From Isoetes taiwanensis (Eukaryota > Streptophyta > Lycopodiopsida > Isoetales > Isoetaceae): a DNA stretch of 64,000 nt. Under the pieces are notes generated by a model. That model saw nothing but the letters and a program-made list of their open reading frames with translations, had not been told where the DNA came from and searched no databases. A program made the position numbers and the translations under genes. Below, one piece after another: positions 9,517 through 49,458 of the stretch; position 1 is the stretch's first letter; each line of letters begins with the position of its first letter. The stretch lies in contig JAJEKV010000690.1 in assembly GCA_021234155.1 (NCBI GenBank), positions 1 to 64,000 of the forward strand, given 5' to 3'.

Positions 9517-9545
9517 GGGTGACTATGGAAAGCTAAACCTATGGT

Positions 9546-25152: not shown

Positions 25153-25164
25153 ATAAATTTCTTG

Positions 25165-25615
25165 TAATGGTAATCTAAAAGGGAAAAAGAATGGACGGGT
25201 AAAAAAATGTATGGAAGTCACCGGAATTGATGGCAGAGAAATGGTGGAAGACGGCTCTAAAAGATGGGTGCCTCCCCAAAAATTATTGAAGGATTCGTGA
25301 CCTAGGAGACTACTGCAATATGCAGGCGGCATTTATCAAGGTAAAATGGTCTTAAATAAACTCTAACCCTAAAAATATGAGCTATGATTTTGGTAACCAG
25401 GAATCAGAGGAAGAAGAAGCGCCAGAATATGAAATGAACAGGGAATTAATCTAGTGTCTTAGATCAGTTCAATTGGAGAAACTAGATATGGATAAAAGGG
25501 GCAGAGACAGGAGCTATGACACTAAGCGTAATTTTGGTGAAGGCAGCTCCGGATTTGCTACCAAAAGAGGAGCTTATTCTAATACGAAACCATCTGGGTT
25601 TTATAGAAACGATTG
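25165..25615 (+). pseudogene. Right piece of split repeat X, chimeric ORF without RNase H
   Basis: X resumes here and carries the MSYDFGN-like start (about 25378) and the GEGSSGFATKRGAYSN block. It stops at about 25615, before the RNase H tail, where another X copy begins. A stop codon interrupts the early ORF (about 25453). Confidence 0.65.
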
Positions 25616-26677: not shown

Positions 26678-27630
26678 TGAAGATTTTCAAGACAACTTTA
26701 GTTGCATATTTCCAAAGCCATAAGAATGCTACAGTTTTGTTCAAGATACATCAATGCAAGTTATAAAAACCATGGAGACATTATTGAAACAAGGTGCTGC
26801 GCACGAGGGTTGCCCTCCATGGCGGGAGAGTGAAATGGCTTAAATCATAGTTCAAAGTCATGTTTAACTTAACTAAGCATGTGGAAATCCATAACCCTGA
26901 ACATTTGGAAACAAAATTCTCTGTAGCCAGACGAACTACCTTTATCTTCCAAAATGCACTAAAGTGTTTGGCAACCTGTAAAGTAAAGAACACAAGAATT
27001 TCAAAACTGTTGCTGTTAGGCAAACAGAAAGTATCCAACATAAATCCCCAGAGTCGCAAACGATTGAATATCTTCTTGCTTTGGGTCTTCGGAGCATCTT
27101 CACCAGTAAAATATTAAGCGGATCAAAGCTAAAAGCTTTAGGCACACGCTTTTGCATTCTATTGTACTTCAATGGATGCATTCAATTTTCAAATCGTTAT
27201 TTGCCATAATGACAACAGTGCATGTATATACTGTAGGTCTTGTAATTTTCTTATATGCCTGGTTTGTTGCATCCAAGCACATCCCTTTTTAGATTTTGGT
27301 GGCCAAAACACATGAACTCGACCCATTTTTGAAGCTTTTCTCTTTGCAAGACTCGCCTCCAGTTTTAGGGTACCCAAAGTAATGTGCAGTCGAGAGAAGA
27401 TCGAAATGTAAAAAATCGAAGAAGAAGGAAATGGGCTTAGCTGGCCGCCAAAATTTGAAGAGCCCCATATTCTGGACCAAATCCGCTGCCCAATCCTCTG
27501 GTTTATTCCTTCCCTACTCCATTATTTCCGAAAGAATTGAAGAGAAGGGCACTGGAATCAGGGTTGCCCTTAAGGTCAAATCTGCATAGGCATAATTTAG
27601 AAAGTCAGGCGAATCATAGGCTTTTGAAAT
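26678..27630. repeat. Repeat family Z, copy 2
   Basis: Matches 1-984. Here Z directly follows the 3' end of an X copy. Only short indels separate the two copies. No gene is called. Confidence 0.85.
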
Positions 27631-28534
27631 TAGTACTAATAATGGCGAGTGTTTTCTTGACTCGAATTATAATCATAGAAATGTAGGCGAACATTTTTTT
27701 ATGTAGATTTTAAATAACCGCACAATTTTTTGTTGCCCGTAGTTAGTCGAGCAAACAAAGTACATGGACATGCATATTAGAATATATTCCCATTGCTTTT
27801 TTCAAATGGTCTATGGTTTTTTCAAGAGCTATGCAATGGTTTTTTGGGGAGGCTCTTATTTCTTCTTCAATGCTTTAAGGTTGCCAAATTGAACTATGGA
27901 ATGGTTGGGGATGAAGTTTATGGCTACATAAAATGGCTTTTCTAACCGAATACTAGAGAATCAATTCAACATTGTTAACCTCACACTTATAATTTTTTTT
28001 TGCATGATCAAACACTTAACTTTCATAACGAAATTTGAGCTAATTGTTCAATAAATGAAAAGCAAAAATTCCAATCAAACTTGCAATATATGAAATGGAC
28101 AACATTTAACATCACAAATAAGCAACAATACATTTAAAATGAACGATATAATAGGGTTCAAAGTGTACAATAATGCTTCATTAACTACAAGGATGTCCAG
28201 TTTGGTCTATATTAGGGATGGGACAAATAGGTGAGTAACAAAAGACAACCACTGTGATGTAAACTCCTACTCATCAAATCAGATTTACTGTACATTCATG
28301 TCTCTACAGTCAATTACAGTTATTTGAGGAGAAGCGATGTAAAGTTGAATTCTAAAACATAAGATTCTCTTCAAGCAGAACTTGATGATAGAAAATCAAC
28401 TTCGATCATGATTTTTAGCTGTTTTGTGGACACAAATGCCTTAACAAATTTTTGTGATGGTCGCAAGACAGACAACAATTTATATGTCCAGCTAAATATC
28501 AAGACATGCTATTTACAATAGTTCTATCTCAAAT
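27631..28534. other. No gene seen; AT-rich
   Basis: AT-rich single-copy-looking filler between repeat Z and the next X copy. I see no ORF worth naming, no RNA gene and no repeat. Confidence 0.5.
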
Positions 28535-29202
28535 TCAGTTCAATTGGAGAAACTAGATATGGATAAAAGGGGCAGAGAAAGGAGCTATGACACTAAGCGT
28601 AATTTTGGTGAAGGCAGCTCCGGATTTGCTACCAAAAGAGGAGCTTATTCTAATACGAAACCATCTGGGTTTTATAGAAATGGAACAAAAGAAATAGTCT
28701 GGTTGAGAAGATTGCTAGAAGAACTTGGTTATAAATAAGGTGAGCCAACATTAATTTATACTGACAGCATGAGTTGCATTGCAATTGTTAAAAATGTTGT
28801 ACAACATGAGAGAACTAAGCATGTAGAACTTGATGTACACTTTATCAGAGATGTAGCAGAAAAGAGATATACTCGAATGGGTTATATCAACACAGATCTG
28901 CAGATTGCAGACATATACACAAAGGCATTGGTGGAGAACTAAGGGTGACTATGGAAAGCTAAACCTATGGTTAAAAAATGTTCAAATGTTGATAAGTTAA
29001 AATGGTCCGTATATTGAATTTGGATAGAGGTCGTGGTGCAATAAAAAGGAGGCAACTATACTGGGAAAGGTTAACAACCACCTAGGTCCATGGAGGCATG
29101 AGACACGATGTCCCAAGAGGTCGGGATCAGGCCGAAGCGACCGGATCAGATCCTATAAACTTAAGATGTAATTAGGAAGTTGGCACAGGGTCCAGGAATT
29201 CA
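28535..29202 (+). pseudogene. Repeat X copy, truncated, RNase H tail
   Basis: X starts within its ORF at CAGTTCAATTGGAG (28535). The frame 28544-28738 covers the Arg/Ser-rich block and the start of the RNase H part, and is stopped by TAA just after ELGYK. The rest of the RNase H tail is readable to 28941. The element then runs to the GAATTCATTT end, where truncated Y begins. Confidence 0.7.
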
Positions 29203-30600
29203 TTTGCCACTATAGACTTCCTATGTTCTATTTGAACGTAAATATTAGAGAAGTGCATTTGACTAGGAAGTTTTCTTGTCATCACAAATTGGCATGTCGT
29301 TGATCATTAAACATATGGAAAAACAACTAAAATGCTTCTTTCCTTTGGGGTCATTGAACCACCAGCTTATTAGAAAATTATATTCGTAGTTTTGTAACAT
29401 AGCAGTCATCACCCGGGGGATTCAGTATTCTTTGCAGTACGGGACATGTGCATGCAAGAAAGGGGGGTTTTTTTTACCATTCAGTATTTGTATACTTACC
29501 ATTAGGGGGTTTTTTTGCCATTATCTGGGGCAAAATATATACTTTAGGGGTTAAATTAGCTTCCACAGATCAGTATACTAGGGATGTTTTTGGGCACACT
29601 TCGAACGCAGATGTCCATACCCTTTTATTACTAAGTGCATCCCCCGGGAGTCATCATTGAATTCAGCCTCTAAGAAGATTGCTTACACTTTCTTCCTGGC
29701 TTAATTTCTTTCAGATCAGGCGGAAACAAACTATTCTTGGTCCCCACCCTATTATGAAGCCCTTATTTTATATAGCAACTCTGTAAATCCACACAAGGCT
29801 CCACCTAGAATGCAAGATACCCCAATAGTTAACATGTGATTTCTTGTGTGTAACAAACTTTTAAACAAATGCATTTACCTTATGCTACAAAGGTTCCACT
29901 CTCTAAGTCATTTTATCAGTCTTATAATGCTGATAAGTTCCTTGAGTTTTCTATTATATAAAAGCATTGTCAAGTAGGAGTTCATCATGCGGATTGATTA
30001 GTTGTGGAAATATATGGAGAAGATCCTATAATACTCAGTTTAGCAGAAGTGGGATTTTCCCTATAGTAAGCTGACCCTAAGAAGATATTGAACGATTTCA
30101 TGATGAGTACTCAACTTGTTTCATTTATTCTGTTGTCTGATAGTGGTTTCTTATTTTTTCTCTGAATCAGATGGAATTACGTTGTGTTGTAATTTCATAT
30201 GTAAGCTATTTCCAAGTCCTGCCTGAAGTACACATCCTGGGTTTTACTTTAAGATCAGGCTCATCCATTCCTATGGCAATATTTATGTCACATGTAATCA
30301 TTTGTCCCTTCAATATTGTGGTTTCATCACAAGAATTATCAAGCCTCAAAATTCTCACCACCCATTATGGAACCCTAGAGACCTATCCAAAATACATGGC
30401 CGTTTAATTTATTTGCTGGACATATATGGAAGAGGTTATCATTATGTTTATTCAATGCAATATGGCAATGTTAATTGTTTTCTGCATTTAGACTAAAGAA
30501 CCACAGTCAATTTGTAAAATTTAGAAGCATTTGGCCTTTAAAAATCATATTTAAAGAGGATCTTGTTAAACGTAAGGCGCCTTCTTTTTCTTCTTCTTTT
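29203..30600 (+). repeat. Repeat Y copy holding a small TIR element
   Basis: Left-truncated at the same base as the copy at 7598 and joined to the same X end. It is interrupted by the 237-bp element at 29412-29648. It ends in a long C/T tract (30580-30643). Confidence 0.75.
29412..29648. mobile_element. 237-bp MITE, TIR CCCGGGGGAT, 8-bp duplication
   Basis: Ends are CCCGGGGGAT and its exact complement ATCCCCCGGG. The element is flanked on both sides by AGTCATCA (29404-29411 and 29649-29656). Other Y copies hold the empty site with a single copy of this sequence or nearly so (AGTCATCATTG at about 7805). It has no ORF. An 8-bp duplication fits hAT-like and several other cut-and-paste families, and the G/C-rich end is not the usual hAT start. 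Confidence 0.92.
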
Positions 30601-30643
30601 TCTTTTTCTTTTTCTTTTCCTTTTTTTTTTTTTTTTTTTTTTG

Positions 30644-31300
30644 TGTTATATCCTTTAGCTATTGTTAACACATTGAATATGCATTTAGGAAACATTGTAC
30701 CTCATTAGAGGAAGTAGAAGTATTGGTGATGGTACAGTTAATGATGAATGTATATGTGATATTTGTCCTTAGTTGAAATGGGTCAAACATGTTAATGGTC
30801 ATCTAAAAGGGAACTAGAATGGACGGGTAAAAAAATGTATGGAAGTCACCAGAATTGATGGAGACGGCTCTAAAAGACGGGTGCCTCCCCAAAAATTGTT
30901 GGAGGATTCGTGACCTAGAAGACTAAGTGGTCTCAAATAAACTCTAAACCCTAAGAATTTGAGCTACGATTTTCGTAGCCAGGAATCAGAGGAAGAAGAA
31001 GCGCCAGAATATGAAACAAACAGGGAATTAATCTGGTGTCTTAGATCAGTTCAGTTGGAAAAATTAGATTTGGATAAAAGGGGCAGAGGCAGGATCTATA
31101 ACACTAAGCGTAATTTTGGTGAGGGCAGCTCCAGATTTGCTGCCAAAAGAGGAGCTTATTCTAATACGAAACCATCTGGGTATTATAGAAATGGAACAAA
31201 TAGGGAACACTTTGTAGCAAATAGGGAACACTTTGGAGAAAATGGGAATCTGATGAGGACGAAAATTAGGTATGGTGTAATATGGTAATGTCTTCCTAAG
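30644..31300 (+). pseudogene. Repeat X copy, chimeric ORF without RNase H
   Basis: The frame 30961-31288 (TTG in place of the ATG, then SYDFRSQES) covers the acidic start and the Ser/Gly/Arg block. It then departs from the other copies at NGTNREHFVANREHFGENGN, which contains a short internal duplication of the REHF unit. The RNase H tail is absent. This could be closer to the unfused parent sequence. Confidence 0.6.
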
Positions 31301-32662: not shown

Positions 32663-33161
32663 TCTAGGTTCTAATTTTTCTTTTTCTGATTAACATTATC
32701 TTAGCTTATTGATCTAAGGATTGGAAAAAAAAAAATTTCTCAATTTTCGAGGTTTATGCTTGGGTTGTTATCCCCAAGGTTGAAGGTCTACTGTTAGTCC
32801 TTTCAGGGAAAACACGATTGCAAATTAAACGGGAGTGTTGCATCACTCCCGTTTCAAAGATTCCCTTTTAAAAAACACCATGTTTCTAAATTAAGCCTTT
32901 TTTGAAAGTTGTTGAGAATTTCTAGAGGTTCGCATTTTTTTTCGTGCCATTTTGGGCCATTATTAGGCGATAACTTTGTACTTATGAAACAGAAATCATA
33001 CAAATAGCTTAAATTTAGGCAGAGACTTGAAGAGATGGAAGCATGAAAAAAAACAAGCAATTTAATAGAGAGGAAAAAAAGTAATATGTTTTTAATAAAT
33101 TTTCGTACATCAATATGGAAGATTCATTGTAATAAATAATGATAATTTTAATATGCAGTAG

Positions 33162-33762
33162 TCAAAGATCTACATCATAGTCCTCATCATTTTTTTTGCT
33201 GCTCTCTGCCGTCTCGTCCTTCTGTGCCGTCTGCTCCTTTGCTGGAGACTTAAGTTTTGTATCCTCCTTGTCCTCTGGAATGGTAGCTAAAGCTACTTCT
33301 TTAAGCTCTGCAAAGGTTGCCTCATCGTCTAGTGAGCTGGAGAATGGAGGCTGTATCTCTGAGGACGTTAGTTTAGCATAATCAGATGAAGACTTGGCCC
33401 CTAGCTCTTGATGTTCATCTGGTAAAGTAGGTAAGGCAGCCAGTCTCATCTTCACAAAATTAACAGCATCCTTATCAATATCCACGGCTACACAGTTGCG
33501 GCCCTTCTTAAGTGCACATGCGATAGTAGTACCAGAACCAGAGAAAGCATCAAGCATTCCAATCTCCGGACGAGAACATGTCCAGGAGATGGTTGATGAG
33601 CTTTTGTGGTTTCTGGTAGTGATTCACAATCCTGCCTTGTGCAGTTGGGTCCTGCAATTTCTGTAAGACTGCTGGAAACTCAAGGACGTTTGAAAAGTTT
33701 TGACAGGCGGCAGTGTTGAAGTGTTCCATGGTCCTCTTCCCATCAAAACTCCAATAAGCTAC
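33162..33762 (-). pseudogene. DNA methyltransferase, C-terminal half (FSGSGTT)
   Basis: The minus strand reads VAYWSFDGKRTMEHF, NHYQKPQKLINHLL, then, after a one-base shift, LDAFSGSGTTIACALKKG and VAVDIDKDAV, followed by an acidic low-complexity tail. FSGSGTT is the AdoMet-binding motif I of N6_N4_Mtase enzymes. KPQKLINHLL corresponds to the conserved KP-x-x-L segment before it. The catalytic motif lies upstream, at 46900-47000, so the order IV then I is the beta-class order. Element C lies in the middle of the gene, directly upstream of this piece. Confidence 0.85.
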
Positions 33763-34075
33763 ATGAAGGTAGGGTAGAAGCATGAAAGGGTGTCTTGTAT
33801 TTCTTGCAAATTGATGTAAAAAAATACACTAGCTTAAAGTGAATTTAAGGTAAAATTTGAATTTTACATGGGCTGCCTATCATTAATGCTTTTGGTCCAC
33901 TTGAGATTCTTTTTGCAATTATTTTTGGCAACCCACCGAATTTGGGGGCACGTTTTGAGTTTTGAACTCCCTCCACAGGATTGAAGCTACCGGATTGAAA
34001 CCCCTTTCTCATTGGAACCAAGAATAGGATCCCCATTTCTATGCCTGTTTGATCGATCTTGGAATGTATGAAGCT

Positions 34076-37040
34076 ATGGCAGAATCAAATTCACCAGCAA
34101 CAACAGATTCGGATCTTGTTCTTGAGGAGGACTTACCATCGATTCGGAATTTTGCTATTGAGGAGGACTCTACATGCATTTCTTAGGGACAACCAATCTT
34201 CATCAAAAAAGATGCAATAGAGAGGCCGGATATGGGACAAAAGCAGATTAGAAGAAGGGTGAATGATTCGTGAATCACATACTAAATCAAGTTTCTAGAT
34301 TGAATCCAAAAGAGAAAAAAAAACTTTCTTTGGAAAATTGCTCCAGGATAGTAGATTGGACTTTTTATTTGGCCCCTGTTGTTGGAAGGCCTAAAGAGGC
34401 TATTGTGAAAAGAGATTTATTTGAAAACCTTAAGGATGGCCTCCAAGAAGTGAAACGTGCTAATAGCAATGACAAGCTTGTCGCCAAACACAATGTTCTT
34501 TCCATGGTAGTTGGAAAGGAAGGAGTATTTACAGCAGACCACACGGGCAGCCAAAATCCTCAAATTGCATCCTAGAAATATGAAGCTAGCAAAAGAAAGG
34601 AGGAAAAAATGTCACTTGTGGGAGCAAATCTGTGGGCATTAGCAGGACGAAAGCCAAGAAAAAAAATGCCATAGATCGGGGCTATGAGGGACAGAGTTGT
34701 TGGTTTACGGTTAGATAATACAAAAGTATCACCAAAGGTAAGAGATGTCATGAAGAAGAGGACTGAACCAATTCAAGACATCGACACATTACATGTACAT
34801 GCTAGTATTTTAGGGTCATGGAGGAGTCACATAGTTTTTTGAATTTTCGATCTGAACATCAAATGTACTTTAGATAGGAATGTATGTAGTCATGTAGATG
34901 TTTTCTACATTTTTGCGTGTGTGATAGTCTTTTTACATACAAGCATGTTCCACATCATGCATCAAGAAATGTTATTCGGTTTTTCTTGTAGAAGTTATAT
35001 TGACATGCTTTACATTGAATCCAACTTGAAGGTATACTTGAAGCTAACTGTAGAGATGTGCTATAGATGTAAGAAAATAAAACGGAAGGAAGCCACTTGT
35101 AGGAATGTAGTAGATGTCAAGAAAAATATGTGAATGCTTTTCATAGAGTAGCTATTATGTAAGGATGTGGGGTTTTGAGGAAGAAAGTACTTAGTTTGAA
35201 GAATGTGGAAGATACATTAAAAACATATAGAATGTACATTCTAATATTTTGTAAGATTACGGTAAAGGTACTTTTGCAGGTTGAATTATACCAAATCTTT
35301 GTTGATCAACATCCAAAAGTCAAAATTGGCATCGGGCAATTCGAATACTTAAAACCTCCTTGCATCACTAAAAGCTAAAGGAGAGGAATACCTTATTTGT
35401 GTGAAGCATGAGCGAAGCAGATTTTATATAAGAAGGCTTTCAATATGATGAGGTCAAAATTCCACGAGAATTGTACTTGCAATTGCAATGTGTGTGCTTC
35501 GGGTTAATGCCGGGATTTGCCAAGCTAAGAAGCAGGATTATGATAATGTGAGCACGCTTTGGAGAGCCATGATATGCCCGAGGGCGGCCGATGAGGAGTG
35601 GCACAAGCTAGCCTGCATGGAAACAAAATGTGACAGTTGTGGGAAACAGTTAATTGAGTTGTGTCCCAGAGAGAAGGATGGAAGCATCGAGGATTCGGTC
35701 GATTGGCAAGTCTATAACTATGTTAATGAACCTTCAAAGAAGGGAACTTCCCGAAGGCTGAAGTTAGTTGACAAGAAGGGCAGTGCAAAGGAGATGTTGG
35801 ACAGCATGTTCGACCATATGTCTAAGTTTATATATCACAATTTTGTGGCACATTGGCAAAGCAAGCAGTTCAAAGAATGCATACGAACGCCTTCGGCGAT
35901 TGATTCAGTGCTATCAGTTGTTGATTTTTCTGAAAATTATACTTTGAAGCCATTCAACGAGATTCAAGCTCAGCATTGGTACAATGAACAAATTAGTATT
36001 CTGGTTCATATCACCATGTTCAAGGTAAATGGCAGATTGAGAAAATGTGTGCACTCATTTATTTCAGGCGACAAAACTCATGATACCCACTTCGTACAAG
36101 ATGCATTCAAGATGCACCTCAAATGGTTGCAAGAGAATGGTGGTGGCCATTTGAAATACCATTTGGTTTGGTCCGATGGTTGTGCAGCCCAGTTTAAATC
36201 TAGAAGAGCATTCTATCATGTGACAAGATACCATGTTCAACATAAGATAAGAATGCAGTGGAATTTCTTTGGTTCAGGACATGGGAAGGGAACACACGAT
36301 GGGGAAGGGGCAATCTCTAAATTGTGGCTTGAAGCAGAACAAAGGAAAAAGGATGGGAAGATAGTAAAAGATGCAGCAACTGCGTGTCAAGTATTGAGGG
36401 AGAAAAAATCAGATGTGGAGAGGGTATTCTAAAAAGTGACTGACATTGATCGGTCCCAAGCACATGATGTACTTCCAGTAAAAGGCATGCAATCACTTCA
36501 TTGTGTGTCTTCAATAGACTCAAACGATGCTACAAAATTATTGTGCAGACCTCTTTCATGTTTTTGCAAAGCATGCATCAATTTTAATTGGCCTGCTTGT
36601 GAGAATGCTGACCATTGTGGTAGGTGGGAGTTGCGAAAACTAGAGCCAATTAGTAAGATCAATCCTGGAGATGTTGATGAGGCTGAGGATTTATGGGCAA
36701 ATGACGAGGATAATATTGACCAGACGCCGCAGGGTTGGTGATTATTTTGGATGCTTCACGACCAGGCATAATCATGAGGGGGTCCCTTATTATATCCTTC
36801 AATGCAATCAAGTAAAAACATGTACTCGAGGTAGATACTATGGATGACTATGGAAACTTATTTTTCAGAGGTGATGAGGTTATTACAGGCAACTACTTTG
36901 AGCTGATCCCTAGCTGCCATCAGAAGTACAGGTTACTAAAAGAGAAGAAGGTTTTGTCCCTCCCGAGTCCTGTAATAGGGGGTTTTTCGCATTGGAGCCA
37001 CCAAGCACAAGATAAAAGGTGCTGCTTATGCATATGAACT
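34076..37040 (+). pseudogene. DDE-like transposase-family protein of element C
   Basis: The gene is decayed and probably split by introns. The start at 34076 (MAESNSPATTDSD) is acidic. A NTKVSP-like block lies near 34730, then HPKVKIGIGQFEYLKPP (about 35305) and a Cys-rich block (CTCNCNVCAS near 35477). The long frame 35488-36432 has CDSCGKQLIELCP, VVDFSENYTL, EIQAQHWYNEQ, VWSDGCAAQFKS and GSGHGKGTHDGEGAISK. After a stop, 36436-36741 gives a second Cys-rich block (CFCKACINFNWPAC), and a last domain (DEVITGNYFELIP) ends at about 37040. Asp residues in VVDF, WSDG and THDGEG could form a DDE/D triad; that is inference. The protein at 51558-55439 is a diverged homologue. Confidence 0.75.
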
Positions 37041-37570
37041 GTCTCAAAGATTGGTACCGAGATGCTATTAGGAAATCTGCTTCCGAGATTGTAGATGTAA
37101 TCGCGTGAATTGCGTTTCTTGTATCAAGTTTACCTTTTTGTACATCAGGCTACATAATTATTGTCATGTGTTTGGCCAGCAGAACAATTCTGATCACTTG
37201 TTTTCAATATTAAAGTGAATACATTGGCAGCAGGTAGGTTCAAGACACTTGTACATGTACTTGAGACACTTGTACTTGTACTTGAAAACTCAAGGTTAAT
37301 GGCTACCTTAGGTTAATGGTTCATATTTCGTGAGTGTATATATGGTAAGAGCCATTTTGGAAGTGCCTAGTATTGTGGTTTTGAATTTGCTTGTTTGATC
37401 CTCAGGCTTACAAAGACAACTTATAACTTGACATAGCTCAATATGCCTCTTTTAAAACAATGGGGGACACTTATATTGTATCCTTTAGAATGGGGAACTT
37501 ATATGGGGGACACTTATGTTGTACCCTAAACCATAACTTTGGCTACTTTAGAATTGGTGGGGTCTTTATT
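37041..37570. other. 3' flank of the C gene, no ORF
   Basis: AT-rich non-coding sequence after the last readable domain, with a repeated GGGGGACACTTAT motif at about 37460-37520. Probably 3' UTR or spacer between the convergent genes. Confidence 0.4.
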
Positions 37571-37590
37571 GACCTTGTAAAAATTAAAAA

Positions 37591-37900
37591 GTGTTAACAC
37601 AAAGTGCAAGGTTTGACATCTTGCCACAAAGTGCACAAAGTGTTAACACCTTGTGCAAGGTTTGACATCTTGACACAAAGTGCACAAAGTGTTAACACCT
37701 TGTGCAAGGTTTGACATCTTGACACAAGTTGCACAAAGGTCTTGAACCTTGGCAAGACATTATTGACCTTGTAAAAATAAAAAAAGGGGACATGAGTTTT
37801 TTTTCCCTTGTCACTTATACAAGTTATTTAACACGTGCACAAAGTGTTAACACCTTGTGCACAAGTGTTAACACCTTGTGCACAAGTGTTGACATCTTGT
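37591..37900. repeat. Minisatellite built on palindrome GTGTTAACAC
   Basis: GTGTTAACAC occurs at 37591, 37640 and 37689, exactly 49 bases apart, with TTGACATCTTG and CACAAAGTGCACAAA between. A further cluster at 37844 and 37865 has a 21-base period, with a degenerate copy at 37886. The core sits in a larger dyad (CACAAGTGTTAACACCTTGTG). It lies between the two convergent genes of element C. Confidence 0.85.
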
Positions 37901-38505
37901 CCTCACCACTTATAGCAGAATTATTTAACACTTGCAGCAACAAAGTGCTAGTAATTTTGTGCAATGTTTGACATCTTGACCACTTATACAACTTATTAAC
38001 ATCTCCTCCTAATTGTGCTCTGACAATACAACAGGCAGAATTTGTGTCAAAATAGTGTACATGTTCACAATGTCAAAATATTGACATGGTCAGACTTCAA
38101 AATTTACAACTGTATCTCATGTACATGTCAAAATTTACAACTATATCTCATGTACATGGTCAGAGATTACAAAATTGTCAATGCACTTGTCCATCTCAAT
38201 CCCATGGGCTCAAGAGCATGAAGTCACAAAGATGGGATGGAAGCAAAAAGTGTGCACTTATCAAAAACGGAAATACCTTGCACTAACATTTCGAGGGGGA
38301 TGAAAGTGTATCCATCAAGTCAATTTATACCTTCACCTCCTCGTCATGGACCCCATGAAAAGTTGGAGTCCGAAAAGTAGAGGTTGCCGAGAAGAATGTG
38401 AAGGTACATAGTCCGAGTCCGAAGTCACCGCTCTGTAAGTCAAGTGTTGGGGACTTGGTGAGTCGAAAAAGAAATGGGATGTATCAAGCATACACTATCA
38501 TCAAA

Positions 38506-38641
38506 CCCATCTCAAATGATCAAGTCATGTAAGATCATGACCTCACATTCATCATCTTGGAGCACTCATCCAACCCATCTCAAATGATAAAGTCATGTAA
38601 GATCATGACCTCACATTCATCATCTTGAAGCACTCATAATA
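38506..38641. repeat. Tandem duplication, 68-bp unit
   Basis: Two adjacent copies of a 68-base unit starting CCCATCTCAAATGAT, differing at about three positions. Non-coding, in element C. Confidence 0.85.
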
Positions 38642-39213
38642 TGAGCTTAAGTTGTCAATAAGTGGTAGAACTTTTTATGAGGATAATTTAAGAACAGAGA
38701 AATGAAAGACATACAAAACACTTGGGATAAATTGACCTTTGCGTAAACCAGATACATGCTTTAGAATAATGCCATATGGCACAACTTATGTCATTTTTTC
38801 AAAATTAATTGGTTGAGGCACTCTGGCCAAGTACATCCGAAATTTTGAAGGCAACTAGGCCAAAACAAAGTCTGATTTTTATGCAGAGTGATTCCATTAG
38901 GCGCTCGAAGGTATTACCAAAGATCCGAATTTTATACAGCTTATGATATCGAGCATAAACCAAGTGTTGATCAAATCTGAAAGCGACTGCTCATCCACAA
39001 AACTCATAAACAAATGGTTAGATTCATCTACCAATCGACACATCAATGGCTTCTCCATCTTCACACCGCTTGGCTTCTTCTTGCGACATGTCCCGACCTA
39101 GCGCATAATCGTGTGAAAACCAACTCGTCTTGAAACACGTGCATAGTGCATTAAAGCAAACGTAAATGTAAAATGGTGTAAACTAAAAGCTTGCAAGAGA
39201 ATTGGACACTTAC

Positions 39214-39812
39214 CTTCAACTCCTTATTTCCGACAAACCGTTTCACAAATTTGTGCATGCGAGCCATCACATACAAGCCGCAATTCAATGCATCAGTCGC
39301 CGAGGTACTTCAAGATGTTCAAGCCCCTTCACATTATTTTCGCGAATAAAATCAACACCGCTTGAGGTTTGACTCATTGATTGAGTCAATATCGCATATG
39401 AAGCCCTCGCATTACATGCACATTTAAAAGTAGAAATGTAAATATTTAAGTAGACAGGAATGGGAGAAAGTAGATAGAAATGCATACCCTCTAATTGCCT
39501 TCTCATTTGTCGCAAAAGCTTTCAGACTATTCAATATATGAATCGATGGTGCACGAAGAACTATAGGATTCCCTTCTGCAAAGGCAAATATAGCCAATAC
39601 AAAGTGCTCATTCTCAAGCACGGGTAGAAGAACATACTGGCATTTTGACATAACCAGCCCTTTCATTCCCTGTTTCACGATATCTACAACGTTTCTTGAG
39701 GCCTCGGTTTTTTTCTTACTTGCTGTAGCTTCCTTGAACAAGTGAAAGTTAAAAGATGGATAAAAGAAAATCTTGTTCTTCCACTCCGATGGCAAATTAT
39801 GATGCAGATACC
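39214..39812 (-). pseudogene. Ulp1/C48-family cysteine protease of element C
   Basis: The upstream exon (39812 to about 39493, after an AG acceptor) reads QYVLLPVLENEHFVLAIFAF then PSIHILNSLKAF. This matches the His-(Trp/Phe) and Asp-Ser-Leu catalytic blocks of Ulp1 proteases, but with Asn in place of the Asp (ILNSLK). The next exon (to 39214, donor GTAAGT) reads TDALNCGLYVMARMHKF, the Cys-Gly block. Just before it the frame breaks where VPQQ would need two CAG codons but CGGCG is read. Ulp1-like proteases are common passengers or partners of plant DNA transposons. Its role here is unknown. Confidence 0.8.
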
Positions 39813-40189
39813 TACAAGAAGATAAGGTCATAATTATACTTCATTATAAATACACAAAGAATAGGAAACAAGATTGCAAATTAAATGGGAGTGTTGCATA
39901 ACTCCCGTTTTAAAGATTCCCTTTAAAAAAACACCATGCTCTTAAAATTGGCCTTTTTTAGATAAACTTGAGAATTTTAAAAGGTTCGCTTTTTTTTTTT
40001 CCCTCATTTTGGCTCCTCATTAAGTGACAATTTGTTTTTTTGCAAAGATGTGCCCTTAAAAATGGCAAAATGTAGATGTGAATACATAATCTCTGAAAAT
40101 GAGATATCAAAAACATCAAAATAGAGAAGAAAAAATAATAACTATTTCTTTGAATTTTTTCAAGACATCAATTTGGCACCCTCAAAATT

Positions 40190-40297
40190 TAGTCCGAATT
40201 GAACGATATGCTCGCCGACGCTGTAACTGGGTATACGCCCCAAGTCTCTACGTAGTTGTTCCTCAAGCATATTTGATTTGTTTTGACGCTCTATTGG
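40190..40297 (-). pseudogene. Methyltransferase internal exon, copy in element B
   Basis: After an AG acceptor (TATTCAG) the minus strand reads PIERQNKSNMLEEQLRRDLG and on to VQFGLNF. The exon of element A at 47269-47405 starts PKERHNMSNMFDGAAKRRDM after the same acceptor. The remaining downstream exons, including the catalytic motif, are absent from B, so B cannot make an active enzyme. Confidence 0.65.
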
Positions 40298-40372
40298 CTG
40301 AATAAAAAAACAAAAAATATTCAAGTAAACAAATGAACACTAGGACACATAAAACTAAATATAAAAACAAAA

Positions 40373-40549
40373 GTGTATTCGGAATACACTTTTTGTTTTT
40401 CTAAAATATGACGTGTATTCCGTAATACACTTTGAATTATGATAAAGCAAAAGTGTATTCTCGAATACACCTTTTGTTTTCTCGAGAAAGCAAATGTGTA
40501 TTCTCGAATACACCTTTTCGAGAAAGCAAATGTGTATTCGAGAATACAC
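40373..40549. repeat. Palindrome array 1 (element B, intron-like position)
   Basis: Five copies of an 17-18-base palindrome GTGTATTC-NN-GAATACAC start at 40373, 40413, 40453, 40496 and 40532. Spacers of 18-25 bases differ in sequence but are themselves roughly dyad-symmetric (for example around CTCGAG). The centres vary (CGG, CCGT, TCTCGA, CGAG). The array begins 76 bases upstream (gene sense) of the methyltransferase exon. Confidence 0.92.
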
Positions 40550-40559
40550 CTTTGCTTTC

Positions 40560-42730
40560 CCAATTCACGCCTCACATTCCCCCAAAGGTGTTACATTCAA
40601 GGAGGTGACCTGATTAAAAGTATTTTGACTTGTCCAAGAGGTACGATTAATGAACAAGCATAAGACATTTTGGTTTTCCCTGACACACCTAATTTGGCTA
40701 TGGCTTCCCATGTCCCTTAAGAACAAAGTTGGACCTTGTGGCTTGAGTCTTTTCTATAAATGCCTAAGGAGGATTTTTCCAATTAATTTTCTCATTGATC
40801 TTGATAAAACATCAAATGTTACTTAGCCATAATTTTTTTGTTCATCTTTCTTGCTCTGGATCATGTAAATGAACTCATCGATAGCATGCATGGATCGAGA
40901 TATAAAAAGACAAAGCAATATATTCATTTAAACAAGGAGATACATCAGAAAATAGTCCTTTTCGCTAAACTAAGGCACACAACTCTAAAGTAAAACCAGA
41001 GGGCATGAAAATATACAATTATCATCAACCAACCAGAGGGCATGAAAACATACAACTCATCATCAAGGGGTTGGGGAGATAAAATGGACCGACAAGTTGC
41101 AACAAGACCGGCAAGTTATCGATACAAGATACATGTTTTGAGGATAATGAGCATGTCCCCGCACCAACATCCTAAAACTACTAGAACTATATTTGTTATG
41201 TCGTCCAGATCCATCTTCATGTATCAATTTAGGCTTGGAATTCAGCCATCTTACACTTATTTGATAATGTTGTTGATTTTGCAAATCTTGATGAGTGAAA
41301 GACTATGAGAACCGGGCGCTTCTTTTAAGTGCCATAAATCGAAGTTGTAAACATCGGCCCTTGTAGAGCTCGCCCAACATCTACAGGTTTTGTTCATCAT
41401 GCTTTTGCAATTCTACCTAGTCTTACTTCATTGTTCAACTATCATGTTGTCGCTTATTCAACTTTCTTTGCCATACTCATGTTGCCGCATGTGTGCAATG
41501 AAGCCACATTTTGCTCCAATCGCCGCAAAAATTACACAAATTCCACTATTTAAAACTAGAAAATCCTTTGAAAGGCACAAGCCTAAAATAGTAGAAGATG
41601 TAACCATTTGCAAGGAGATTTTGCAACCAACACAAGAACAATTGCAACCGTAACCATGCTCCGTACATTAATAAAGATCTGTGGCCACACAAACATTTTG
41701 CCTTCATCAACAAACCCGACAAAGCCATGTATACAATCTTCATTACATTGTCCGGCCAATATCTTGACAGTAAATATGTTGCATTTGTTGAGTCTAAAAT
41801 AAGAACAGAGGCAATTTCGGTAAGATATCCTCGCATGACATCGGCATCTCCGATCTTATACTGTAATTTTGATGTCATTGGTCTAACTTGGCAAACCGCA
41901 TATAAAATGAAGAAGCAGAGGGATCCACGCTAACGCTGATTCTCGGCAAATTCCATATCAAACGCTATGTCATGAAATATCTATCAACCCAACTATCATT
42001 GCCATGGTGTTTCCAAAATTTCGATTTCTATGGAGATCCAGATCCGAAGAAATTCCGAACAATCGGCACAGCATGACTAAAGATTAAACTTATCTTGAAA
42101 CGCATAAAAGGAAAAAATTACAGAGACCGTGACTGCTTGATACTTAGTCTCAAGTTTCAAGTTTTTGCATGCAAATATAAAAAGGCTCGATTCAATTTAC
42201 TTCCGATTATGTATTCTCGCCATTTGAAACATAAGAGGAGATCGTGGCTACTGTAAGGACCAAGAAGGTCATGGGCTTATTTTTGCCATGGAAAAACCCT
42301 AAATCTAAGAACCCGAAGCTTACCGAGCCTCCAGAGCCGCTGTGGTTTCTTGATTCACCATGCCAGAGCCAAAATAGACCACGATGAAGTAGATCGCTCG
42401 ATAAAATCGATCGAGGGAGAAAAAAATTTGCCTCCTCTCCCCTTCAGACTAAAATGTATTCGAATACAAAGTGTATTCCGTATCAACTTTTCCACTTCGA
42501 ATGCGACCACGATCCAAGATCCCTACCTCTAAAAAGGAAACAAAAAAATCCCTTTTATTATTTAGAACCATAATCCTGTATCCCCATAAAATAAACAAAA
42601 TAAAATCGCAAGGTCCTTGAAATTTATTGAAGATACTGAAAAACCTAGTTGATGTCGCCTGATTTTCCCCTGTCCCTATCCAGAATAGGAAATATATTCC
42701 AGATCAAGTGAGTCTCAAAATCTTAGACAA
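40560..42730. other. Middle of element B: unidentified, possibly captured sequence
   Basis: Not found in element A. The minus frame 41546-41878 (LQYKIGDADVMRGYLTE and on) and a short plus frame at 42271-42387 (LPWKNPKSKNPKL) have coding-like composition but I do not recognise either. A degenerate palindrome unit lies at about 42454-42480. Confidence 0.4.
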
Positions 42731-42737
42731 CAAAAAA

Positions 42738-42838
42738 GTGTATTCCTAATACACTTTTAGATTTTCGAGCAAAATAAAAGTGTATTCCGGAATACACTTT
42801 TGTTATCCTCGAATAGCAAAAGTATATTCCAAAATACA
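42738..42838. repeat. Palindrome array 2 (element B, near right end)
   Basis: Three units start at 42738 (GTGTATTCCTAATACAC), 42780 (GTGTATTCCGGAATACAC) and 42822 (GTATATTCCAAAATACAAT, degenerate), exactly 42 bases apart. The spacer between units 2 and 3 (TTTTGTTATCCTCGAATAG...) is an imperfect palindrome centred on TCGA. Confidence 0.88.
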
Positions 42839-43202
42839 ATTTTGGTACTTTGAAATATTATATCATTAAAAAATGACTCATTGTAACCTAAAAATACCTT
42901 TTCTGGAATACAATCCAAGCTAGCAAAATGTTGTGTAGGACGTACACTTAAATTAGTGGTTTTCTAAAAATACGCCTGTAAATTTAACAAGTAGGAAAAG
43001 CGCCACTTTGACATAGTCAATTTTCTTTTGCATAAAAAAAATTGAGTGATTTTAGGGGGGTCAAAATGCAATTTTATGATCAAAATAAAATTTTTACCTC
43101 ATTTTCGCTCTTTTTTTGGGGGAAAAAGGGAATCTTTGAGGAATATTCCTTTTGCTCCCGTTTCAATGATTTGCTCCCGTTTAATATGCAACCTTGTTAG
43201 GA

Positions 43203-46200
43203 GATGAAATCGAATTACATCTACAACACCTTGTGCATACCCGCCATGATTCAATAAGCGCTTTGTCATTCTTGATCCGGGTGCACGAGTTCTTCAAGGT
43301 CAATATCGACCACCTTCATGGGAGGATCAGGGGGCTATCCTTGAAAGGCATTTAAAGGCGTAAGAACACGGGGTTTTTCACGCATGCTCCTACAAGGATC
43401 AAATTGAAGTGTCAAATATCATGCGTGTGCATAAAACAAATGTTTCATAATATTACCTTACATCAAAGATCGATTCTTCACCGGATTTAGTATCTTCAAG
43501 AGATTTTGTGTCTTCAATGATTTTTGCCTACAAGAAATGGTGTGAGTTGAAGAAATGGTGTGAGTTAAGGTGAAGTGCATACCTTTTTCTTAGCTGCACT
43601 CTTAGCCGGGTGCATCCTTTCTCGCTTGAGTTTTCCGCTTGTTATTTGGGGGCATCCTCCTCCTTCACGATAATCGTTTCTATAGCCTGCCGGTGCTTTC
43701 TTATCTTCATCCGCCATAACCAGTAGGAGAATATGCACCTCATGAACAAATGTTCTTGTTTGATGAGCTTTAAAACCAAAACTAGCTAGCAAGCCTCGCC
43801 GCCATTTTTCGCAAAGAAATGGAAAACATATTGAGCTTCAAGACCTAAAAGTACATATGAAGTGCTCGAATAGGTAGTGTAAGACAAACACAACTAAAGA
43901 ATTAAGTAGCTAAATACCTATATTATCGTAAAAACAAGTTAAAAGAACATTCATTAAATGGCGACCTATTGTAGAAACCTCAACAATGGCTGGTACTTCT
44001 CGGTGGCAATAGGGATTTTTTTTGGTCAATATTCTCGCCACCTACTTCAAGTTGTATGAATGGACAAATATAAGCTAAATTAATGATGACACCATACAAA
44101 AATAAAAGTGTCCGCTCACCTTTGATAGGAACCGTTCTTCGAGTCAAGGAAGCCAACTCTAAGATCCAAATTTGGGATCTCCTCTTGAAGACTAATTCCA
44201 CCGCAATCACACATCTTACAAATTAGCAACCCCGAAATAATATTGAAGCTTATATCAACTCAATTAAATTTGAACTTATCGATTCTGGGCATTGCCATCT
44301 CCACAAACTTTCCCGACTCGCTGCTTTCCCGAGCCGTGAGAGAATGCCTTAATAGGTGATGCCGATGTAGAAGGAGTCCGTAGGACATGGCATCATCCTT
44401 GGTTGGTTTAGGTTCAAAAAACATCGAGAATTCGTAGCAAGGTTCTTCCTTCAAGGAATGGCTTCACACCCGCATATGACAATGGCTAGTTAGTTAGACT
44501 CGGATCTGAAAAAATTCTACATGTTTACAAATCATCTACATGTTTACATTACCGTTACAAATAGAGTTCAGGTTTCTTGATGCTCCCCTGCTTCGCAAAA
44601 CAAAAATTAAATGTAATCAAACTAACAAACAAGGAATCAAGAATGTAAAGTGTCAATAAATGTAAGTCATGCAAGAAAGCATCTACATGAGATAGGTCCG
44701 TAAGTTATGCAATAAAGCATGTACATGATGTAAATTTAAGTGAAGCAAGAAAGCATGTACATGAAAGAAATGTAAATGATGTAAAGAATGTACTGTATCC
44801 AAATCCAAGCACCTTGAACTACATTCATTCTCCGTAACAACAAAACTTAAGTCCATGTAGAAGGTAAATGTCGATTCAAGATTTCTACCAAACAAATACA
44901 TATCTAAAAATAAGCACTTGCATATCAAAAAGTATTCCTACAATCAGCAAAAAATGAAATCAAGTGAACAGAATTACCTTGAGTAGAAATTTTATATTTG
45001 CACGAAGTTCTTGAGGCCAAAGACAATGAAAAACACATCGGGGGTTCAAGTAGAAACACTGTGATGAGAGACAAAAGAAGGCGTGAGGGATGTCCACATG
45101 ATGGCAACGCCAAAATACTATTGTCAAGGCATGCATTGCAAGAGCAAAGATGTGTTCTTCACACGAGGATTTGATGCCTTACTATCTCGCCGTAAGAACA
45201 GATGGATGCAAGGTAATTACATCCGATGTTTCAAGATGTAACATCATGTCCTTTATCCTACTCTCACTAATTTCATTCATCTCCAAATCCTTGCCGATTT
45301 CATGGATGGCAAGTGGCTAATGTCCCTTTCGAAGTCATGTCTTCGATTGGCTTTGTTAAATTTTTCATCTCCTCCATAAAACTTGATTTTTTCCTCTTCA
45401 AAGTGACTTGCCAATGCCATTTGCAAATCTATTGGCTGCCCTCACGCCTTTAGTGTCGAATTTTGGCAAGCCGAGTGTTTATCGTGCATCGATTTTTGGA
45501 CAACCCTACTTAATGTGCTTTCTCTCACTCTAGCCCTCGCAAAATCTCGGATTCAAGTAGCTTCCTCTTGTCCTTCAACTCCTTCAACTGCTAATCAAGA
45601 TAGTAGCATCCACAAGTTTACTCTCAACCAATTTCTTCAACCCATCCATCCGCATTTCTAAACCGACCTGTGGCATTTATTTACCTTGCATATTTTACAT
45701 TGACGATTTTAGGTCTTTGCATGTGTAACATCAGACTCCTTTTGCTCTTTTTTAGCGAAATAGCATTCTCCTTTACCTCATTCCGGTCAATTTGTATGCC
45801 TTTGTAATGAAGTGCAAAGGCCCTTGCAAAGTACAATGGAATGTGATGGTTATTGATCTCCGCCTTGCCTTAATACATGCTCATATTTCTTAAGAAAATC
45901 GCCATCCAAACCCCTTGGATCTTGGCATCTTGGTAACCCCTATCACTGGTGGTTCAGAGCCCCAAACATCATGAACCACTTGCAATGCACTGGAAAAACC
46001 GAATCAAAATTGTAGGTCCTAAGTCGTTTCTAATGTTAACCTTGAGCAACTCACAAGAATGAAGATTTTCCAGAGTTGTCTTTAGTTTCAGCCGGCTTTC
46101 GATGGCTTAGGCAGGGTTGCCATGGGCTTCAAACCCTTGGTTCTTGGCGACTTTTCGACTGATCCCACCTTGCCGCTTCATTGCTTCTTGCTTTGCTACT

Positions 46201-46330
46201 AATAGGGCTTGATCAATCACTAATGAATGCACAAAATCACACCCTCCTGCAGCCTAAACCCTAAGCTACCGATCTAGGTGATAATGGGAGAGTATCGGGC
46301 TTAGGGTCCATGATCGACCTTGCAAAGGTC
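43203..46330 (-). pseudogene. Upstream exons of the element C Ulp1 gene, poorly resolved
   Basis: Several minus-strand frames have coding-like composition: 45350-45430 (HFEEEKIKFYGGDEKF), 45110-44980 (NPRCVFHCLWPQEL), 44454-44270 (KEEPCYEFSMFFEP) and 43720-43590 (ADEDKKAPAGYRNDY, highly charged). Some end at GT donors. They lie upstream of, and in the same sense as, the protease exons at 39812-39214, with element B between. I cannot join them into one reliable frame and name no domain other than the protease. Confidence 0.4.
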
Positions 46331-46382
46331 GGCTATGGTGGGAGCAGCAGGTTGGGAAATGGGCGGGGATCAAAGAATCGAG

Positions 46383-46420
46383 GAAGGAGGTCTTTTTTTT
46401 TTTTTTTTTTTTTTTTTGAA
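46383..46420. repeat. Poly-T tract
   Basis: A run of about 25 T inside element C close to its right end. No coding meaning. Confidence 0.8.
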
Positions 46421-46585
46421 AATTAGTGCATTAAAGTTTCCCAACCCGTTTGAAAATTAGGGTACCCCTAATAAATGAGATCTCAAAGGGGAATTTTTAC
46501 ATTTTGCAAATGTAAATGTATAAAAGTGTCCCTTTTTTGCCCACCCTTTCATGCTTCTACCCCAGACTCTACCTTGCTAAGCAAC

Positions 46586-48123
46586 CTTGGTCCTCCACCA
46601 TGGTAGTTGATGTTCGCTTTTGTACCTAGTGAAACATTTAAAGTGATGTTAGCAAAAACAAGAAAACACTCTAAAAACCGAACAGGAAATACTATTAGGA
46701 ATACACTACGTAATCAAAGAGAAAAGTAAATCGTGATTCGGAATAAGACTTACCGCACAAGGTCTTCATATCCCGCCTCGAATCGGAGAACCAAAGTGGT
46801 TTTGAAAGCTGATTCTACCAAGCCCGATCGCATGCTCGAATGGAAAGTAACTAAACGCCAATGTTTAGGGTTGTGATCTGCTTGATTCCATCAATAAAAG
46901 CATTAAACTCTGAAAATTTGAAGGGCTGGTCGTCGATCGGCTTTGCCTTTAAGCTTAAACCCGTAGGGAAGATCAGCAATAACCAAAGTGAAGTCCTGTG
47001 GTTTAACCTGTTCGGACAAGGTTCGTGCAATCACCATGAATGATTGAATATAAATTGTTTTGATCAAACATGCAAAATCTCTCGTAGTCGGATGGTTCTG
47101 GCTCAACAGTTCTTCTTTCAGCTAACGACCTCTCTTCCCGTGCTGTTCTAACCAAATGCATAAAGCCCTCGGGAAGGTCTTTGTTTTTCTTTTTGCTCGA
47201 GGGAAAAACATAACAACAATCAGAAGGAGATCGTGTGTGCAAAGACGAGGAATGTTGAGAGTACTTACACGACCCTCAAAATTTGGTGCATATTGCACAA
47301 TCTTTCGTCGAAGTGGCTATTGGGTAGAGTTCCTTGCACCTTTCCCATGTCTCTACGTTTAGCTGCTCCATCAAACATGTTTGACATGTTATGACGTTCT
47401 TTTGGCTGCAAGACGTTAAGGAAACAATGAGTTAAAAAGTAAGAAACAAGGCAAAGTAGAAGAAAAACAAATAAAAGTCAAGCTAAATGTATTCTGGAAT
47501 ACAAACTGGTTAACTGGTGATGCTACTGAACAAAATGCATTGTGTATTAGGAATACACATTGCTTCTCTGAAGGAAGCAATGTGTATTCTGGAATACACA
47601 ATACTTTTTTAGAAGAGGACATGTGTATTCCGGAATACACATGCCTTCCTTTACATGGGCAATGTGTATTCCGGAATACACATTGCTTGTCTCTAGAAAA
47701 GCATTGTGTATTCCGGAATACACAGTGCCCATGTGAAGAAAGGTATGTGTATTCTGGAATACACTATCTACCCCGATGTTTTTGGGACTCTAACGTCTAA
47801 AGAGTAAAGTTTGTGGCAGAGATCTTACTTGTGCAATTCCTTTGACATTTCTTCTAGGCTAAACTCCTTATCAACAACTTTTTGGAGAAGCCGCTCCAGA
47901 ATCTCTGTGTCGGAGAAGCCCTGCATTTCTCGCCAGACGGTAATGGTCATTTCTTTTTTGGGCACGTCAGATGATTTTTTCTTGGCTGTCTCCTTGCCCT
48001 TGCTCTTTAACTCCCCTCGTTCGAACATTGAAAATATCTCGTCACCGAGTTCCCAAATCTGTTCAAAAAGATTTCCACGTGAGATAGTTGATTTGTTATT
48101 CGGAATACGTTTTTGTGCTTACC
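46586..48123 (-). pseudogene. DNA methyltransferase, N-terminal half (DLPYGF)
   Basis: Minus-strand exons: one ending at 48123 (SVRNILEMAR); 48058-47829 (IWELGDEIFSMFERGEL to FSLEEMSKELHK, helical and charged, flanked by AG and GTAAG); 47405-47269 (PKERHNMSNMFDG); about 47198-46754; and 46625-46586. The fourth holds NLYSIIHGDC and VIADLPYGFKLKG, the DPPY-type catalytic motif IV. It continues FSEFNAFIDGIKQ and EAGYEDLVR with two or three small frame breaks. With FSGSGTT downstream this is a beta-class amino-methyltransferase (N6-adenine or N4-cytosine). Marchantia DN4MT1 is a known plant enzyme of this general kind; whether this is related is inference. Confidence 0.85.
47488..47764. repeat. 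Palindrome array 3 (element A, methyltransferase intron)
   Basis: Six clear units start at 47542, 47582, 47623, 47664, 47706 and 47747 (spacings 40, 41, 41, 42, 41), plus an outlying unit near 47488. The full unit is GTGTATTCCGGAATACAC; centres vary between AG, CTGG and CCGG. Spacers are 22-24 bases and all different, and the first (ATTGCTTCTCTGAAGGAAGC...) is itself a dyad. The array fills the intron between the exons at 47829 and 47405. Confidence 0.95.
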
Positions 48124-48359
48124 TTGCCATCTCTAAAATATTCCGGACACTTCCTTCATAGAACGTCTTTGAGCAACTTCCTCTCAAAAATCCTAAGGAG
48201 TCCAAAGCGAGAAGAAAAGTACCCCGAGTCATCCTTAAAAAGCCATTGAAAATGGAATTTCCTCAGCTTTAAGTACTTCTTAGAAGAAGATGGGATGTGG
48301 TGGAGTAATTTCTTTCTCGAGCAGAGAAAATTGTTGTACAAAATATAGCTCTAAGGCAG

Positions 48360-49079
48360 TTGCAAGAACCATTTCAATGGCCTAACACCTTCCATCAACC
48401 CCGGACCAAGCAGGTCCAAGCGAAAGGCTACATTTGCACCAAAGTAGAAGACGAGGAGGACCGAGTCATGTACCCCTCGGACAAGGCAGGAATGAGCCTC
48501 AAGGTAATATCACGAAATTACCAAAGGTATGCTAATTGCTCTTCCGGACCGAGGGATGATGACAAAGGTCTAACCGTTCTCGATAGCAAAAAGTGCTTGA
48601 CACCGGTCAAGGAGGAAGGCTTAGTCACTAAACTCAAGATTCATTGGCTTGCAACACGCTCGAGAAAATGCTTTTGAAGGTAGATATGAGTTAGAAATGA
48701 GAAGCCAAGGAAAAGGGAGAAAGTCCAAGAAGGTGGGTTGTAGGGACGAAATTTGAACCTTAATGACGTGACTATATTGTGCTATGATTTTAAATTGAAA
48801 TCGACAATCGTCTCACGCTTGAGGAAGACTATCAATTTGCTTAAAAAGCTTGTAATTACTGAAGAAGATGATGAAGAAGGTGGTGACAATGCTTCACCAT
48901 CCGCTGATAGTGATGAGGAAGATAATTCAAGCACTTCCTCGAAAGTGATGATTGAAAGAAGTGAAGGTGATGACGATGGCATAAATGAATATGAGGACGC
49001 CCCGGATCCCTCTCTCATCACTCCTCACACTTTTGCACATAACCGAGTCTTAGAAAAGATCAGTAAATTTTGCATGTGA
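48360..49079 (+). CDS. Divergent acidic ORFs in element A, unknown
   Basis: Two plus-strand frames, 48360-48677 and 48753-49079, lie back to back with the methyltransferase gene. The second has a basic/hydrophobic helix (VSRLRKTINLLKKLV), then a long Glu/Asp/Ser tract (EEDDEEGGDNASPSADSDEE) and a defined C-terminus ending CM. They could be exons of one divergent gene or antisense to the first methyltransferase exon. Not recognised. Confidence 0.35.
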
Positions 49080-49458
49080 ATATGAAGATTCTATCTTCAA
49101 ATTTTGAGAATACTAAAGTTTAGGTTACATACTTACTTCAATTTTTTTTGTTAAATATTTTATCCTCGAAATTAGAGTTTCTCTCTTAAAACATACTTTA
49201 AGAACATTCTATTTGCTAAGAAAAGTGACACTTTAAAAAAGTCAATTTTTTTAGAAAAAAAAAAAATTAGTCATTTGGGAGGGGTCAAAATAGAATTTCA
49301 TGCATCTTTTTTTTTAACCTCGTTTTACCCCCTTTTTTGTAAAAAAAGGGAATCTTTGAGGAATATTCCTTTTGCTCTCGTTTCAATGATTTGCTCCCGT
49401 TTAATACGCAACTTTGTTGGAATTGGTCAGTGATTGATCTTGGTCTACCAAGATCATA

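Follow-up and report, generated by a model that had tools for sequence, protein, structure and literature searches.

A family of TIR DNA transposons within the 64,000-nucleotide stretch of DNA analyzed here (the window) probably carried a bacterial-type DNA amino-methyltransferase gene before its two copies in the window, E1 and E2, separated (table 1). The reasoning rests on three observations: E2 keeps a piece of exon 2 and intron 1 of the methyltransferase gene of E1, the ends of the two elements are ~80% alike, and both contain palindromes that occur nowhere else in the window. The enzyme is probably a part of the transposon family and not a chance passenger. The explanation as a whole, a family-borne methyltransferase that was acquired before E1 and E2 diverged and that marks element DNA, is assigned a probability of about 0.65.

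Table 1. Positions of the nested elements, the methyltransferase gene parts and the palindrome arrays in the window.
Feature	Position	Strand	Basis or remark
E1, outer TIR element including nested E3 and E2	32811..49418		TIRs, TSD
E1 own sequence	32811-33771 (961 bp) + 46563-49418 (2,856 bp) = 3,817 bp		Nested E3 discounted
TSD of E1, GGAA on both sides	left 32807..32810, right 49419-49422		4-bp TSD
E3, separate TIR element inserted in last methyltransferase exon	33772..46562		21-bp perfect TIR GGGTAGAAGCATGAAAGGGTG
E2, E1-family TIR element nested in E3	39867..43198		TSD AGGA/AGGA, ends ~80% like E1
Methyltransferase exon 1	47829..48130	-	Likely ATG 48130; in-frame stop after third codon; GT donor; limits inferred
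Methyltransferase exon 2	47269..47405	-	One frame break; frame picked by comparison with E2
Methyltransferase exon 3	46754..47195	-	HGDC and DLPYGF; three frame breaks
Methyltransferase exon 4, part before E3	46563..46625	-	One in-frame stop
Methyltransferase exon 4, part after E3	33162..33771	-	FSGSGTT, C-terminus; one frame break; stop 33164-33162
Methyltransferase exon 2 and intron 1 piece within E2	40178..40360	-	Alignment to E1
Palindrome array GTGTATTCNNGAATACAC, 6 copies	47487..47764		Methyltransferase intron 1 of E1
Palindrome array GTGTATTCNNGAATACAC, 4 copies	40413..40549		Left part of E2
Palindrome array GTGTATTCNNGAATACAC, 2 copies	42780..42839		Right part of E2

E1 corresponds to a 3.8-kb element (element A) that had been proposed in an earlier sequence-only reading, and its extent was confirmed by the 25-bp ends (AACACGATTGCAAATTAAACGGGAG / AACAAAGTTGCGTATTAAACGGGAG), the GGAA TSD and the length of its own sequence. 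A sequence comparison within the window showed 79.5% identity between the left ends of E1 and E2 (171 bp, 1.2e-36) and 80.3% identity between their right ends (208 bp, 1.6e-47); beyond the TIR, the left ends are unlike the right ends in both elements. The ends follow each other in the order left-left-right-right, which places E2 within E1. Both elements have the same orientation, represent two copies of one family at different sites and display the hallmarks of cut-and-paste TIR transposons (TIRs and a TSD). The terminal motif CTCCCGTTTAATNNGCAA is present in four copies (~32818 and ~39874 on the minus strand, ~43174 and ~49394 on the plus strand), which alone is weak evidence since at least four matches with up to three mismatches were also found in 3 out of 100 shuffles. 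The nested elements and many repeats of the region would be compatible with a host methyltransferase gene into which several transposons happened to insert and which is flanked by the TIRs of E1 through coincidence. This is very improbable given the perfect 4-bp TSD at the ends of E1 and given E2, which has the same two ends, the same gene piece and the same palindromes at another site. The right part of E1 also contains two adjoining ORFs on the plus strand (48309-49079), one of them with an acidic stretch, that are possibly the remnant of a second E1 gene; a Pfam search with these ORFs, which lie outside the methyltransferase gene, gave nothing above the cut-off and no transposase was recognized.

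The methyltransferase gene is located inside E1 on the minus strand (48130 to 33162) and is the main recognizable gene of the element, with exons and introns that account for ~2.2 kb of the 3,817 bp. The sequence-only reading had named it the main cargo, which holds in this sense, but it may not be the only cargo. HGDC and DLPYGF (~47040-46960, minus strand) are followed by FSGSGTT (~33545, minus strand), corresponding to the beta-class order of motif IV (D-x-P-Y), target region and motif I (F-x-G-x-G-T). The assignment to the beta-class amino-methyltransferases that had been made from these three motifs was thereby confirmed in its motif order, and it is also borne out by Pfam: PF01555 (N6_N4_Mtase, cut-off 26.7 bits) matched the unaltered ORF 33162-33623 with 29.8 bits (7.1e-7) and a read-through across the frame breaks with 50.5 bits (3.5e-13). 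Further matches were obtained to PHROG_67 (6.5e-15, residues 201-497 of the first version of the read-through) and to the NCBIfam model of CcrM (8.6e-11, 41 bits compared with an equivalog cut-off of 830), and the best PDB match was CcrM (6pbd, 3e-7). No chromodomain was found in the read-through by Pfam up to an E value of 1.

The exon limits and the sites of the three introns were read from the sequence alone and have plausible splice sites. The gene carries two in-frame stops, five frame breaks and the insertion of E3, and exons 1 and 2 differ in phase as drawn. The methyltransferase copy in the window is a pseudogene. The idea of a mobile, self-marking enzyme, which was part of the sequence-only reading, does not apply to this copy, which is disrupted by stops, frame breaks and E3. 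A zinc-finger-like N-terminus (CQTC...CAIC) was considered and rejected, as it is present only in a stop-bearing frame of exon 2 and the comparison with E2 favors a different one.

E3 is 12.8 kb in length, contains E2 and interrupts exon 4, the last of the methyltransferase gene. Read along the minus strand, this exon breaks off at the right edge of E3 and continues from its left edge, a position that supports E3. The two exon parts share a reading frame provided that 2 nt are taken as a duplication; the exact join is placed by this frame argument only, and a clean TSD was not found at the edges of E3. The inverted pair of GGGTAGAAGCATGAAAGGGTG has a score of 42 that was reached by none of 191 random pairs of 1-kb stretches of the window (best 41), which by itself is modest evidence for E3. 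Two separate methyltransferase copies, as could be read from the two motif clusters, were rejected in favor of one gene split by E3. Within E3, an ORF with one stop (35452-36741, plus strand; DFSENY ... WSDGCAAQFK ... GSGHGKGTHDGEG) resembles a transposase of the DDE/RNase-H type, with a likeness to animal proteins. Pfam gave one match below the cut-off for this ORF (searched in two parts), NCBIfam gave none for its first part, and a fold predicted from the single sequence reached a pLDDT of 36.9. Two pieces on the minus strand (39150-39840 and 43565-43837), carrying ENEHFVLAIFAF and NCGLYVMARMHKF, resemble a Ulp1-like (C48) protease split by E2; the two ORFs of these pieces had no Pfam match. 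A 49-bp unit is repeated in tandem at 37582-37905 in E3, with GTGTTAACAC palindromes.

The methyltransferase piece in E2 aligns to exon 2 and the first part of intron 1 with a score of 129, which was reached by none of 1000 shuffles (maximum 69) and none of 741 other stretches of the window (maximum 57). That a second element (element B, here E2) holds an exon of the gene had been claimed from the sequence and is upheld by this alignment for a piece of the exon, and an element copy other than E1 does carry a part of the gene. The piece is 80% identical between E2 and E1 over 65 bp, and the splice acceptor (AG/CC) is common to both. Three groups of indels, read by hand from the alignment, separate the two copies in exon 2: those of 3 and 12 nt are multiples of three, and the remaining one (1 nt) disrupts the reading frame of E1. 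Among 39 aligned codons, the first, second and third positions differ 9, 13 and 10 times, respectively; third positions are not favored, and exon 2 thus gives no sign of protein-level selection.

In E2, the exon 2 piece follows the left end with almost nothing in between, and exons 1, 3 and 4 were not found in this element (blastn at 0.01; tblastn gave chance-level matches only). Based on this arrangement, E2 looks like an internally deleted or rearranged member of the family relative to E1. The middle of E2 (40600-42720) has no match elsewhere in the window and might represent a further insertion or additional cargo of the family. A Pfam search with ten ORFs of E2 gave three matches, all below the cut-off, and no transposase was recognized among them.

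The main rival is a passive captured gene: in the style of Pack-TIR elements, a host methyltransferase (e.g., of the DN4MT1 type) would have been taken up a single time, prior to the separation of E1 and E2, and would have remained unused. The apparent introns are what would be expected from genomic DNA, and both the missing third-position bias in exon 2 and the failure to recognize a transposase among the ORFs of E1 and E2 that were searched would also agree with a capture. Such an origin is nevertheless somewhat unlikely, because the gene appears to extend from a probable start codon to a stop codon and contains the entire catalytic domain instead of a fragment, because its DLPY is unlike the SPPY of N4CMT, and because two of the indels between E1 and E2 keep the frame.

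For a gene borne by the family speak the TIRs and TSDs of E1 and E2, the kinship of their ends, the exon 2 piece, the whole catalytic domain, the shared palindromes, the frame-keeping nature of two out of three indel groups in exon 2 and the precedents of transposons with DNA-modifying enzymes. Against it stand the lack of a recognized transposase, the broken state of both E1 and E2, the lack of a sign of selection in exon 2 and the small number of copies (two, both within one 64-kb window). In the favored explanation, a TIR DNA transposon family with 4-bp TSDs, in a genome that looks eukaryotic from the apparent introns and the nested TIR elements, would have acquired a beta-class DNA amino-methyltransferase of bacterial type, with N6-adenine a more likely target than N4-cytosine, and the gene, apparently with introns, would have been in the family before the two copies diverged by ~20% at their ends. 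The enzyme would be made from the element and would methylate element DNA, and the methylation might act as a mark that alters silencing or transposase binding. The transposase might be supplied by another copy or might have been lost from E1 and E2.

The palindrome GTGTATTCNNGAATACAC occurs 12 times in the window with up to three mismatches, six times in E1, six times in E2 and nowhere else, compared with an expectation of 0.19; none of 100 shuffles reached 12 matches. Every one of the exact half-sites (13 and 12) is located within E1 or E2. The array could be bound by the transposase or, more boldly, could be a target of methylation. A far-reaching version, which is speculative and quite doubtful, is that the family encodes a sequence-specific amino-methyltransferase that targets the GTGTATTCNNGAATACAC arrays and marks its own copies, which would amount to a system by which a transposon of a eukaryote recognizes itself or evades silencing through 6mA (or 4mC) and to a source of host genes of the DN4MT1 kind by domestication.

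Relatives of the enzyme were sought in prokaryotic, plasmid, phage and viral collections. With a 249-aa core as the query (tblastn, E up to 1), at least 5000 plasmid records were matched, all with <60% identity and 40 of them covering at least 80% of the query, together with 1201 phage records (74 covering at least 80%). In contigs of prokaryote genomes, a 79-aa C-terminal piece recovered at least 286 relatives among at least 594 stretches, and in viral contigs an alignment query recovered at least 114 distant relatives among at least 600 stretches, the best 80 of which were kept. A single read-through query fitted two stretches in the viral contigs, neither of them a relative, and the TIR pattern was found in none of these contigs. 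No match was obtained with the full read-through in phages (tblastn at 1e-5), with 33162-38000 in phages (megablast) or with the right part of E1 (46560-49430) in plasmids (blastn). The prokaryotic or phage nature of the relatives found would be in line with a contamination or misassembly that joined a bacterial gene to eukaryotic sequence. The apparent splice sites, the decay and the TIR/TSD context make this extremely unlikely, and so does the lack of a close prokaryotic relative: among the best 80 of the at least 286 relatives, the top-scoring one is 41% identical across 75 residues and identity peaks at 50% across 50 residues, and near full-length relatives are 22-26% identical.

A comparison of 165 loci identified 169 ORFs that matched the methyltransferase core. 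The catalytic motif was tallied for the 141 out of 169 ORFs with a readable motif pair (28 ORFs lacked one): DPPY was found in 65, SPPY in 51, DPPF in 18, DIPY in five and other motifs in two. The seven best-scoring prokaryotic ORFs, which are CcrM-like and near full length with 22-26% identity, all have DPPY, and the window has DLPY, not SPPY. A tree was calculated from the window sequence and the first 60 of the 169 ORFs by score that contain both motifs at a plausible spacing. The window sequence is located on a long branch (3.9 to its nearest neighbor) in a ten-tip group that contains D-x-P-Y/F motifs only (supports 0.43-0.84), although the share of D-x-P-Y is partly selected since the loci came in part from patterns of alignments that include CcrM-like hits. 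With midpoint rooting, all 23 SPPY ORFs fall in the same half of the tree as this group and the seven CcrM-like DPPY ORFs in the other, the split of the CcrM-like half having a support of 0.4. The enzyme resembles CcrM, a prokaryotic beta-class N6-adenine methyltransferase, in its motif order and as its best PDB and NCBIfam match, but differs from it by its score far below the equivalog cut-off, its 22-27% identity to full-length relatives and its position outside the CcrM-like half.

Judged by its own DLPY and the DPPY of the best matches, the chemistry leans toward N6-adenine rather than N4-cytosine, a choice that the weak tree does not decide. The same element could instead carry an N4-cytosine methyltransferase, as PF01555 covers both chemistries, SPPY is frequent among the matches with a readable motif and all SPPY ORFs in the tree lie in the midpoint-rooted half of the window's group. 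The DLPY of the window, the uniform DPPY of the seven best-scoring ORFs and the restriction of the ten-tip group to D-x-P-Y/F argue against this chemistry, which is considered unlikely.

DIRS retrotransposons encode a reverse transcriptase and a tyrosine recombinase, whereas the selected ORFs of the window had no match to domains of either enzyme and TIRs with a 4-bp TSD are present instead. Transposons that carry DNA-modifying enzymes are already known, namely DIRS elements with Dam-like enzymes, retrotransposons of Symbiodinium and charophytes with DNMTs, viral Mariners and TET transposons. The Dam-like N6-adenine methyltransferases of DIRS retrotransposons (PMC5890265) share with E1 the presence of a bacterial-type adenine methyltransferase in a eukaryotic mobile element (the adenine chemistry being a lean for E1), but E1 is a TIR element with a 4-bp TSD and a beta-class PF01555 enzyme that matches CcrM best in both PDB and NCBIfam. 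The same source describes SymbioLINE-Dnmt, SymbioDIRS-Dnmt3 and DNMTs of charophyte retrotransposons as 5mC enzymes with demonstrated de novo activity; self-methylation is proposed there for the retrotransposon DNMTs and analogous roles are suggested for the DIRS adenine methyltransferases (PMC5890265). A DNA methyltransferase in a transposon is common to these elements and E1, but they are retrotransposons with 5mC DNMTs and E1 and E2 are represented by broken copies only. Mariner elements integrated in viruses carry methyltransferases (Methyltransf_26, Cyt_C5) together with transposase and endonuclease genes and have TA TSDs (PMC3627910). They are, like E1, TIR DNA transposons with a methyltransferase gene, but differ from it in their location in viruses, their TA instead of 4-bp TSDs, their transposase (none was recognized in E1) and their methyltransferase families (PF01555 in E1). 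Fungal DNA transposons of several superfamilies carry a TET/JBP passenger that oxidizes 5mC, and an escape from methylation-based silencing is proposed for them (PMC12730594); a base-modifying enzyme is present in both cases, that of E1 being an amino-methyltransferase.

Among host genes, the bdelloid N4CMT (N4-cytosine, SPPY, chromodomain; PMC8885841) and the bacterial-type DN4MT1 of Marchantia (N4-cytosine; PMC8566409) are, like the E1 gene, bacterial-type amino-methyltransferases in eukaryotes. N4CMT combines SPPY with a chromodomain and is a host gene, whereas the E1 gene has DLPY, no chromodomain match and a location in a transposon. The MT-A70 enzymes (PMC12695648) belong to another family. 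Eukaryotes gained bacterial-type amino-methyltransferases on separate occasions: 4mC enzymes are found in Marchantia and bdelloid rotifers, and early fungi took up a 6mA enzyme of prokaryotes (PMC12344493). Searches of open-licence PubMed Central literature turned up no report of a eukaryotic TIR transposon with a beta-class enzyme of PF01555. If the favored explanation is true, a TIR family could spread amino-methyltransferases between sites and perhaps between lineages, and host genes could arise from it by domestication. Amino-methyltransferases would then join the base-modifying enzymes of eukaryotic DNA transposons, and the family would provide a concrete case in which to search for 6mA or 4mC.

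In the remainder of the window, a Pfam search with ten other ORFs (one of them in E3) gave three matches, all below the cut-off, and a search of the window with Rfam at gathering scores gave none. Three regions (6465-9607, 14075-16572, and 21164-31191) contain families of direct repeats of 90-300 bp with three to six copies each that are 61-99% alike and recur at similar spacings (described for the 20 largest of 41 families). These direct repeats have the appearance of large units that were duplicated into an array long ago.
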